Part shown: piece after piece, positions 25,396 to 27,537 of the stretch | Position numbering within the stretch: position 1 is the stretch's first letter | Layout: each line of letters starts with the position of its first letter | Assembly (NCBI GenBank): GCA_009699575.1 | Contig: WLNY01000007.1 | Coordinates: 1 to 64,000, forward strand | Direction: 5' to 3' | DNA from: Actinomycetota bacterium | Lineage (GTDB): Bacteria; Actinomycetota; Actinomycetes; Nanopelagicales; Nanopelagicaceae | Length of the DNA: 64,000 bases | Translations under genes and position numbers: made by a program | The notes under the pieces: model-generated | The model's database searches: none | What the model saw: only the letters and a program-made list of their open reading frames with translations | What the model was told of the DNA's origin: nothing

Positions 25396-26835
25396 ATGCG
25401 TCGCGCCAAAATTGTTTGCACAATGGGTCCAGCAGTTGAGTCTCCAGAGAAAGTCCGAGCGCTCATCAAAGCTGGAATGAATATGGCTCGCCTGAATCTC
25501 TCGCACGGTGGCTATCCGGAGCATCAAGAACGTTTAGATCAGGTCCGCGCCGCTGCTAAAGAAGCGGGTGTGCCTGTAGCAATTCTTGTTGATCTTCAAG
25601 GACCAAAGATTCGCTTGGCTCGATTCGCCAACGGTCCACATGATCTTGCACGAGGCGACATTTTTACGATCACAATTGATGATGTAGAAGGCACAAAAGA
25701 TCGAGTCGGCACGACCTATAAGGGCTTGCCTGGAGATTGCAAGCCAGGAGATCGCATTCTCATTGACGACGGAAAAGTAACTGTAGAAGTTACTTCAGTA
25801 ACTAAAACAGATGTTGTAACGAAGGTAATCGAACCCGGAGCAGTGAGTAATAACAAAGGAATCAATCTTCCAGGTGTAGCTGTGTCCGTACCGGCATTGT
25901 CTGAAAAAGATATCGAGGATTTGCGTTGGGGACTTCATGCAGGTGCAGATTTCATCGCCCTATCATTTGTTCGAAGTGCTGATGATCTTAAAGACGTACA
26001 TAAGATAATGGACGAAGAAGGAATCAGAGTTCCGGTTATTGCAAAAATTGAAAAACCACAAGCAGTTGCCAATTTACAGGGAATTGTTGATGCATTCGAT
26101 GGCATCATGGTTGCACGTGGAGACCTTGGAGTTGAATTACCTATCGAGGATGTACCTCTTGTTCAAAAGCATTGCGTGGAGTTAGCACGTGAAGCAGCCA
26201 AACCAGTCATTGTTGCAACACAGATGCTTGATTCAATGATCACGAATTCTCGTCCTACTCGCGCCGAAGCAACGGATTGTGCAAACGCTGTTCTAGATGG
26301 CGCAGATGCACTCATGCTTTCGGGTGAGACAAGTGTCGGAGATTTTGCAATAGAAGCGGTAGAAACAATGGCGCGCATTATTGAAAAAACCGAAGAAGGC
26401 GGCCTCAACCGAATTCTTCCGTTGAAACATTCACCTCGCACAAAAGGTGGCGCAATTACCAAAGCAGCAACGGAAGTCGGCACAACAATGGGATCCAAAT
26501 TTCTCGTGGCATTTACCGCCAGTGGAGATTCTGCAAGGCGTATGGCGCGTTTGCGTTGTTCAATCCCTATCATCGCTCTCACGCCCGATGTCGGTACATA
26601 TAACCGCTTGGCGTTGACCTGGGGAGTAGAGCCGATGATTGCTCCAGTTGTTTCGCACACTGATGAAATGGTCAAGCAAGTTGATTCGATCATGCTCAGC
26701 AGTAAGCGAGCCTCAAAGGGTGAAAACATCATTATCGTTGCCGGTGCACCTCCAGGGCTGCCAGGTTCAACAAATGCGATGCGCGTACATGTAATCGGCG
26801 ATGCTGTCGATGGGCTTGCACCCGCATATAGATAG
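25396..26835 (+). CDS. pyk: Pyruvate kinase
   Basis: Last step of glycolysis, phosphoenolpyruvate plus ADP to pyruvate plus ATP. 479 residues. The N-terminus RRAKIVCTMGPA, the substrate loop MNMARLNLSHG, the catalytic KIEKPQAV lysine near 218 and the metal-binding MVARGDLGVELP near 238 are intact. The C-terminal allosteric domain is present. Starts 19 bases after gltD and may be co-transcribed with it. A 225-residue open frame on the opposite strand within this gene is a shadow. Confidence 0.97.
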   Translation: MRRAKIVCTMGPAVESPEKVRALIKAGMNMARLNLSHGGYPEHQERLDQVRAAAKEAGVPVAILVDLQGPKIRLARFANGPHDLARGDIFTITIDDVEGTKDRVGTTYKGLPGDCKPGDRILIDDGKVTVEVTSVTKTDVVTKVIEPGAVSNNKGINLPGVAVSVPALSEKDIEDLRWGLHAGADFIALSFVRSADDLKDVHKIMDEEGIRVPVIAKIEKPQAVANLQGIVDAFDGIMVARGDLGVELPIEDVPLVQKHCVELAREAAKPVIVATQMLDSMITNSRPTRAEATDCANAVLDGADALMLSGETSVGDFAIEAVETMARIIEKTEEGGLNRILPLKHSPRTKGGAITKAATEVGTTMGSKFLVAFTASGDSARRMARLRCSIPIIALTPDVGTYNRLALTWGVEPMIAPVVSHTDEMVKQVDSIMLSSKRASKGENIIIVAGAPPGLPGSTNAMRVHVIGDAVDGLAPAYR

Positions 26836-26859: not shown

Positions 26860-26865
26860 TAGACT
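26860..26865 (+). promoter_or_regulatory. Candidate -10 box for the tRNA
   Basis: TAGACT lies ten bases before the first base of the tRNA, so a transcript from it would begin about four bases ahead of the mature tRNA. The preceding CTAC-TTATAT-GTAG is a small inverted repeat. No clear -35. Confidence 0.35.
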
Positions 26866-26875
26866 GTGCACTCAC

Positions 26876-26948
26876 GCCTCGGTACTCCAACGGTAGAGAG
26901 GGCAGTCTCAAACACTGCATAGTGTCGGTTCGAATCCGACTCGAGGCA
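26876..26948 (+). tRNA. tRNA with CAA anticodon (leucine, UUG codon) but class-I shape
   Basis: A 73-base cloverleaf. Acceptor GCCTCGG pairs with TCGAGGC plus discriminator A73. The D-arm has only a 3-bp stem (CTC/GAG). The anticodon arm GCAGT-CTCAAAC-ACTGC puts CAA at 26909-26911. The variable loop is ATAGT, only five bases, and the T-arm is GTCGG-TTCGAAT-CCGAC. A14, A15-T48, GG18-19, T33 and TTC54-56 are all in place, so it looks functional. Bacterial tRNA-Leu normally has a long variable arm; this one does not, although A73 fits leucine. CCA is not encoded. A start codon follows one base after the 3' end. Confidence 0.8.
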
Positions 26949-26949
26949 C

Positions 26950-27537
26950 ATGAACACAGGACGTATTCGCATACTCGTTGCTGAAGACGAAGCGCTCATC
27001 CGCATGGATCTTGTGGAGATGCTCGAAGAAGCAGGATACGAAGTCGTTGCGCAAGCTACCAACGGTGCCGAAGCAATTGAGTTGGCGAATCAACACAAGC
27101 CAGATTTAGCAATTCTTGACGTAAAGATGCCAGTACTCGATGGAATCTCTGCAGCGCAAGAAATAATAGGAATATCTCCAGTTCTTATGCTCACTGCCTT
27201 TAGTCAAAAAGAACTGATTGATCGTGCACGCGATGCTGGCGTAATGGCATATGTTGTGAAGCCATTTACCATTTCCGATTTAGTCCCAGCCATAGAAATC
27301 GCAATGAGTAGACATACCCAGATGCAATCACTTATTGAAGAAGTGGCTGATTTGCACGAAAGATTGGAAACTCGCAAAATTATTGACCGCGCCAAGGGCA
27401 TTTTGATGGCCGCATTAAATCTCACAGAACCAGAGGCATTTTCCTGGATTCAGCGCGCAGCTATGGATCGACGCCTGAGCATGAAGCAAGTGGCCCAGGC
27501 GGTAATTTCGCCAAGCGCCGTCCCAGATGGTGGTTAG
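26950..27537 (+). CDS. pdtaR: ANTAR-domain response regulator (PdtaR-like)
   Basis: Two-component regulator that acts on RNA, not DNA. 195 residues. The receiver domain (about 1-122) has the acidic pocket AEDEALIRMD, phospho-acceptor D57 (AILDVKMP) and K104 (VVKPF). A coiled linker then leads to an ANTAR RNA-binding domain (LETRKIIDRAKGILMAALN..AFSWIQRAAMDRR..MKQVAQAVI, about 135-185). It closely resembles mycobacterial PdtaR as I remember it. ANTAR proteins bind paired hairpins to prevent termination. No ribosome site: the ATG is two bases after the last tRNA base, so the message probably arises by processing of a tRNA-mRNA transcript. No partner kinase gene is in the window. Confidence 0.92.
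   Translation: MNTGRIRILVAEDEALIRMDLVEMLEEAGYEVVAQATNGAEAIELANQHKPDLAILDVKMPVLDGISAAQEIIGISPVLMLTAFSQKELIDRARDAGVMAYVVKPFTISDLVPAIEIAMSRHTQMQSLIEEVADLHERLETRKIIDRAKGILMAALNLTEPEAFSWIQRAAMDRRLSMKQVAQAVISPSAVPDGG

Follow-up and report, generated by a model that had tools for sequence, protein, structure and literature searches.

A short-armed leucine tRNA gene for UUG in a Nanopelagicaceae genome and its relatives across Actinomycetota

We analysed a 64,000-nt stretch of DNA from an Actinomycetota bacterium of the family Nanopelagicaceae (assembly GCA_009699575.1, contig WLNY01000007.1, positions 1 to 64,000 of the forward strand; hereafter the window) and focus on a 73-nt tRNA gene with a CAA anticodon, located at 26876..26948 on the plus strand. 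Judging from sequence comparisons, we read this gene as a functional leucine tRNA for UUG and place it in a separate type of UUR (UUA and UUG) leucine tRNA, found in actinobacteria, which combines the D-arm of class II tRNAs with the 5-nt variable loop of class I tRNAs (probability roughly 0.9). This short-armed form is called S-type below. The basis for this reading is the conservation of the gene, its covarying structure, its status as the sole CAA tRNA called in a complete congeneric genome, the leucine meaning of UUR codons, the single leucyl-tRNA synthetase (LeuRS) and its closeness to a long-armed UUR tRNA-Leu, the nearest sequence not of the S-type. The role of the tRNA appears ordinary, and it is the architecture that is a real, little-noticed exception.

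Structure, integrity and conservation of the tRNA gene

ARAGORN calls a tRNA-Leu(CAA) at 26876-26949 and the Rfam family RF00005 matches 26876-26948 with 54.2 bits (E 7e-9). Read directly, the sequence provides a 7-bp acceptor stem, U8 and A9, a 3-bp D-stem, a 5-bp anticodon stem closing the loop CTCAAAC (anticodon CAA, 26909..26911), the 5-nt variable loop ATAGT (26919..26923, positions 44-48, with U48 pairing to A15), a 5-bp T-stem and the T-loop TTCGAAT; A73 is the last base (26948) and CCA is not encoded. The D-arm (26885..26900) consists of the stem CTC/GAG and a loop formed by C13, A14, A15, C16, G18, G19, U20, A20a, G21 and A22.

A 3-bp D-stem with unpaired positions 13 and 22 characterises the leucine-type class II D-arm, and a 4-bp D-stem characterises class I tRNAs. 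The gene has the 3-bp form, and positions 13 and 22 are occupied by C and A, which form no standard pair, in all short forms that could be parsed (212/212). At 5 nt, the variable loop lies within the 4-5 nt of class I and below the 10 nt or more of a class II arm. Folding a long arm from the same bases was ruled out, because just 5 nt separate the anticodon and T stems.

In an alignment of 21 rows (A1, from which L133 and L142 were excluded), the cloverleaf with a 3-bp D-stem (10-12/23-25) comprises 20 pairs, and 99.8% of the 420 cells pair, vs 51% for the best control structure obtained by sliding. Twelve of the 20 pairs have changed on both sides, a count reached by none of 500 shuffles; these include the D-stem pairs 10:25 and 11:24, for which 11 and 8 of the 21 rows, respectively, carry changes in both partners. 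In the window itself the 3' partner of the D-stem is ambiguous (GAGAG): the minimum-energy fold picks the first GAG and covariation in the relatives supports the second.

The tRNA is found in 53/61 genomes of the genus with 95-100% identity (the match in G029 covers 68 nt only) and in 146/151 sampled genomes of the order, representing 15/15 sampled genera, with 90-100% identity. Among the matches listed, an identical tRNA occurs in Candidatus Planktophila versatilis (L155). An earlier note, made from the letters of the window, had described an intact cloverleaf with a CAA anticodon, A73 and a 5-nt variable loop, all of which the sequence, ARAGORN and Rfam confirm. Its observation of a 3-bp, class II-like D-stem is borne out by covariation in the 21 rows and by the parsed relatives, and its view that the gene is not decayed agrees with the pairing of 99.8% of cells and the identity within the genus. 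It had also named a long-variable-arm reading of the same bases as what would refute it, and that reading does not fit the 5 nt available. A tRNA pseudogene, which would show broken stems and no selection, was rejected on the same pairing and identity values.

We then considered the whole leucine tRNA set. The complete congeneric genome G014 has 41 tRNAs, among which the sole CAA tRNA called is of the short-armed type; its Leu(UAA) is short-armed too, the long arm is present in Leu(GAG) and Leu(UAG), and no CAG tRNA is called among the 41. Reading of UUA and UUG therefore falls to the two short-armed tRNAs. This set of four leucine tRNAs recurs in the window's genome (1.39 Mb, 49 contigs, 85% complete), where the short-arm UUR pattern matches twice and the long-arm UUR pattern, among the matches listed, not at all. 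These counts bear on the idea that the gene is a decaying tRNA or a regulatory tRNA-like RNA, with a normal tRNA-Leu(CAA) elsewhere. A genome that is 85% complete could not by itself exclude a further copy; nevertheless, no other CAA tRNA is called in the complete G014, nearly all cells pair and identity across the order is 90-100%, so that we regard this idea as very improbable.

As a separate observation, G014 contains several odd tRNA calls (L101, L102, L091, L095): the anticodon arm of an Ala(TGC) is unusual, a Gly(ACC) has A34, and there are two additional Val(GAC)-like genes that closely resemble each other.

Leucine identity, codon meaning and charging

We next asked what UUR codons mean in the window, using eleven plus-strand genes compared with homologues from outside their own order, with UUR partner codons excluded. 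TTG sites are occupied by leucine in 79% of homologous pairs (72 sites, 848 pairs) and TTA sites in 58% (74 sites, 731 pairs), vs 65, 58, 63 and 61% for CTT, CTC, CTA and CTG; control codons score 49% (ATG, Met), 60% (TTT, Phe) and 55% (GTT, Val). When sites with at least five partners are considered, leucine is the commonest residue at 38/46 TTG and 27/46 TTA sites, and at 70/100 CTT, 42/64 CTC, 19/27 CTA and 19/26 CTG sites. UUA and UUG together make up 146/489 leucine codons at homology-covered sites. Four frames were left out of this test, two on the minus strand (one of them antisense to the pyruvate kinase gene pyk) and two on the plus strand with one match each; with these included, the values are 73% for TTG, 56% for TTA and 56-65% for CTN, and the conclusion is the same.

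A single LeuRS gene exceeds the cut-off in each of five genomes (5/5), covering positions 1-842 of the 843 profile positions in G000; weaker matches below the cut-off would be related synthetases. Given a single LeuRS and the leucine meaning of UUR, the same enzyme most likely charges both the short UUR and the long CUN tRNAs. In E. coli, according to the passages seen of a 2023 review, A73, A15-U48, G18G19 and A20a are important, and tRNA-Leu variants deprived of the arm stay active (PMC9976931). All of these identity elements are kept in the window tRNA. By analogy with E. coli, the long arm would be dispensable for this recognition, and the single LeuRS would charge the S-type through A73 and the corner between D-loop and T-loop (A15-U48, G18G19, A20a).

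The determinants are also conserved among relatives. Of 143 short sequences, 135 parse with a class II D-arm and 8 do not; the parse demanded U8, a purine at each of 14 and 15, G18G19 and UUCRA, and differing 3' trailers were counted as distinct. Within the parsed set C13, A14, A20a, G21, A22, A73 and the 5-nt variable loop are invariant (135/135) and A15-U48 is present in 134/135, the remaining sequence having G15-C48; G15-C48 also occurs in L357, which belongs, like L267, to family f16.

The earlier note had proposed three readings of the gene: an arm-less tRNA-Leu, a tRNA charged with another amino acid, or a tRNA-derived regulatory RNA. The first is supported by these data, and the third finds no support, the gene being the sole CAA tRNA called in G014. 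For the second, UUG (and UUA) would have to be reassigned or ambiguous; instead, leucine is the commonest residue at most TTG and TTA sites, about as often as at CTN sites, the leucine determinants are conserved in the parsed relatives, and five genomes have one LeuRS each. In alignment scores, moreover, the best long-armed UUR leucine tRNA ranks above every non-leucine tRNA of G014 for four S-type queries, although two other long-armed UUR tRNAs do not always do so. Charging with another amino acid therefore seems very unlikely to us.

Distribution of the S-type and comparison with known leucine tRNAs

Searches at the level of the class and the phylum found the type widely, and a novelty specific to the genus is ruled out. 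Twenty class-level stretches were selected by similarity to the window's tRNA; 19 contain a UUR tRNA-Leu, and all 19 are short (18 CAA, 1 UAA), L142 being dropped as it holds only a tRNA-Pro. In a scan of named genomes at least 119 stretches were recovered among the matches listed, 118 from Actinomycetota and one from an alphaproteobacterial metagenome-assembled genome (MAG); again among the matches listed, a complete short UUR tRNA-Leu is called by ARAGORN in 111/118 Actinomycetota stretches, the other 7 containing 3' halves only. The families concerned include Mycobacteriaceae, Nocardiaceae, Corynebacteriaceae, Streptomycetaceae, Micromonosporaceae, Bifidobacteriaceae, Microbacteriaceae and others, and the genera include Mycobacterium, Streptomyces, Bifidobacterium and Nocardia.

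To count both forms in the phylum we used exact patterns. The short-arm UUR pattern gives 98 matches in 81/298 genomes and its backward control matches in none; these counts are lower bounds because an exact pattern misses D-loop variants such as L203. The long-arm UUR pattern matches, among the matches listed, in 230 of the same 298 genomes, a few of these matches being due to chance because its backward control matches in 12 genomes. Both UUR tRNAs are short in 17 of the 81 genomes with a short match. Mixed sets also occur: UAA is short and CAA long in some genomes, for example in families f82 and f29, and CAA is short and UAA long in G556, G585, G618, G647 and G695 of family f62, which also has genomes with two long genes. 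Several families outside the window's own class show, among the matches listed, long UUR tRNAs only. Two broader counts are less specific: a class search matching 272/394 at E up to 0.1 includes partial matches and other tRNAs, and a phylum count of 286/298, in which 16 candidates per genome were scored, also matches other tRNAs, so that neither this count nor its absences were used.

The earlier note had started from the view that tRNA-Leu of bacteria belongs to class II; in many Actinomycetota this does not hold. The 2023 review, in the passages seen, describes tRNA-Leu as long-armed everywhere but in animal mitochondria (PMC9976931). Like the E. coli-type class II tRNA-Leu, the S-type has a UUR anticodon, A73, A15-U48, G18G19, A20a and a 3-bp D-stem with unpaired 13 and 22; unlike it, the S-type has no long arm and usually has A9 for G9, C13 for G13 and a variable loop of the form NNAGU. 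The S-type resembles animal mitochondrial tRNA-Leu(UUR) in being a UUR leucine tRNA without a long variable arm. The mitochondrial tRNA owes its identity to A73 and A14, according to the same passages (PMC9976931); the S-type differs in being bacterial, in its canonical T-arm and D/T tertiary bases and in having long-armed GAG and UAG isoacceptors. Allo-tRNAs, described in the part seen of one paper as non-canonical bacterial tRNAs with 8/4 or 9/3 acceptor/T stems, a few of them with leucine anticodons (PMC7609411), differ again: the acceptor and T stems of the S-type, including those of the window tRNA, have the ordinary 7 and 5 bp.

One earlier paper hints at the type in passing. Written on the M. 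tuberculosis toxin MenT3, it lists tRNA-Leu-2, 3 and 5 as those with a long variable loop, implying that other leucine tRNAs lack one, and the text available of that paper gives no account of a short type, its structure or its distribution (PMC11541572). A paper on UUA in Streptomyces tabulates CAA tRNA genes, its main text containing neither "variable" nor "extra arm" (PMC4932002). We found no description of a short-armed bacterial tRNA-Leu in open-access titles and the starts of abstracts, a search that left most subscription journals outside its scope, and the type may already be described elsewhere. The gene itself is called by annotation programs; what appears to have gone unremarked is a separate and widespread arm-less leucine type. 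As a common bacterial exception in cultured groups (Streptomyces, Corynebacterium, Mycobacterium), it makes testable how one LeuRS serves two architectures, and it bears on tRNA annotation, isotype models, LeuRS-directed drugs and toxins that choose tRNAs by their arm.

Three further observations concern the recovered stretches. Eight 3' halves of short tRNA-Leu without a 5' half (seven UAA, one CAA) occur in L158, L162, L175, L187, L228, L236 and L241, with L158, a Mycobacterium MAG, contributing two of the eight; they are probably attachment-site copies left by integrating elements. The alphaproteobacterial case, L227 (1932 bases, GC 0.528), comes from a MAG that bears the label Neomegalonema; its tRNA-Leu(UAA) resembles the S-type and may reflect contamination, transfer or a separate origin. 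The short CAA tRNAs of Streptomyces fall into several sequence types.

Origin of the short arm and the pdtaR-side locus

A single derivation from a long-armed UUR tRNA-Leu probably gave rise to the S-type. When four S-type queries were aligned with the tRNAs of G014 and three long-armed UUR tRNAs, the best long-armed UUR tRNA-Leu beat every non-leucine tRNA, which does not favour an origin from a non-leucine class I tRNA, though the G014 CUN tRNAs come out low. The two forms also differ in their core: the short type combines A9 with C13-A22 in 212/212 sequences and the long type combines G9 with G13-A22 (41) or A13-A22 (3) in 44 sequences, under a parse that required A20a and G21 and that eight sequences failed. 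In a tree built from 56 columns of 158 rows, from which the linked columns 9, 13, 16, 22 and 48 were omitted, 2 changes are required for the state of the arm and 11 for the anticodon of the short rows.

We also examined where the CAA gene lies. Directly downstream of the tRNA in the window, at 26950..27537 on the plus strand, is a response regulator gene which we take to be pdtaR-like, placed by synteny and spacing. Among loci with enough flank, a CAA tRNA lies within 1.5 kb of pdtaR in 21/21 short and 11/13 long cases of the window's own class, in 9/11 short and 7/14 long cases elsewhere in the phylum, and in 34/36 short cases of the named genomes (among the matches listed); none of 82 UAA tRNAs does. 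Within genus g30 the CAA locus beside pdtaR is long in L330-L332 and short in L132, L135, L267 and L282, and the genomes of the long cases (G246, G302, G326) have no match to the short pattern.

This sharing of one locus, even inside one genus, is what would be expected if the tRNA were a functional leucine tRNA whose short arm arose many times, by deletion in place in each lineage, and the few short forms with other variable loops or with G9 point the same way. Yet the cores of short and long genes differ without exception among parsed sequences, 2 changes account for the arm when the linked columns are kept out of the tree, and acceptor stems, which should have stayed alike after a deletion in place, differ between short and long genes. 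Simple recurrent deletion is thus disfavoured, and we consider it unlikely. In the likeliest history, the S-type originated once from a UUR tRNA-Leu, and genes of the two types then replaced one another at fixed places. Under the single-origin reading, the arm would have been lost about once, with compensating changes in the core (usually G9 to A, G13 to C and a loop ending in AGU), and the S-type would since have either taken the place of long-armed genes or given way to them, depending on the lineage.

Several points weigh against a single functional type of one origin. The 119 stretches from named genomes were preselected for AGTGT, and loop conservation in them is partly circular because of that preselection. 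In 9/98 short-pattern matches the variable loop does not end in AGU. Eight stretches of this group were examined, and the short-armed tRNA-Leu(UAA) of two of them, L354 and L355 (family f78, outgroup), keep G9 and have the acceptor stem GGGGGCG; since they keep G9 and differ in the acceptor stem, a second origin of the short arm, by independent loss, is possible. Of the three long-armed UUR tRNAs only one surely beats all non-leucine tRNAs for all four queries, the other two ranking among non-leucine tRNAs for some queries. The tree rests on 56 columns and 78/154 of its inner forks are open, and the fold energy of the window tRNA is modestly better than shuffled (z -1.95, with 8/200 shuffles as good).

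In its broadest form, which we put forward tentatively and with less than even confidence, Actinomycetota would possess a second leucine tRNA architecture of essentially one origin, sharing its LeuRS with the long-armed CUN tRNAs and repeatedly displacing, or displaced by, the long gene at the pdtaR-side locus. One possible reason would be that, once the arm is lost, UUR decoding escapes enzymes that hold tRNAs by a long arm, nucleotidyltransferase toxins for example. Where related genomes carry a long gene in one case and a short gene in another at a shared locus, they offer a natural experiment on what the arm is for.

Upstream of the tRNA, pyk (25396..26835, plus strand) is assigned by its match to a solved pyruvate kinase (5wrp, E 1.6e-165) and by synteny. 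Between the two genes, TAGACT (26860..26865, plus strand), 16 nt upstream of the tRNA, is a possible promoter -10 element; a TANNNT whose first base lies 10-20 nt before the tRNA is found at 42/54 distinct loci of the order vs 20% of base-shuffled upstreams. A full sigma-70 consensus was looked for upstream of the tRNA and was not found. On the other side, the ATG of the pdtaR-like gene starts 2 nt after A73 in the window (A73-C-ATG), an arrangement that is in frame, with no stop, at 35/51 of the order's distinct loci whose flank is long enough; 3' processing of the tRNA could leave a leaderless pdtaR mRNA. The CAA tRNA and pdtaR are co-oriented in 45/47 loci of the window's own order and opposed in 21/21 short loci of the class and 28/34 named loci (among the matches listed), a contrast in orientation that is a local inversion.
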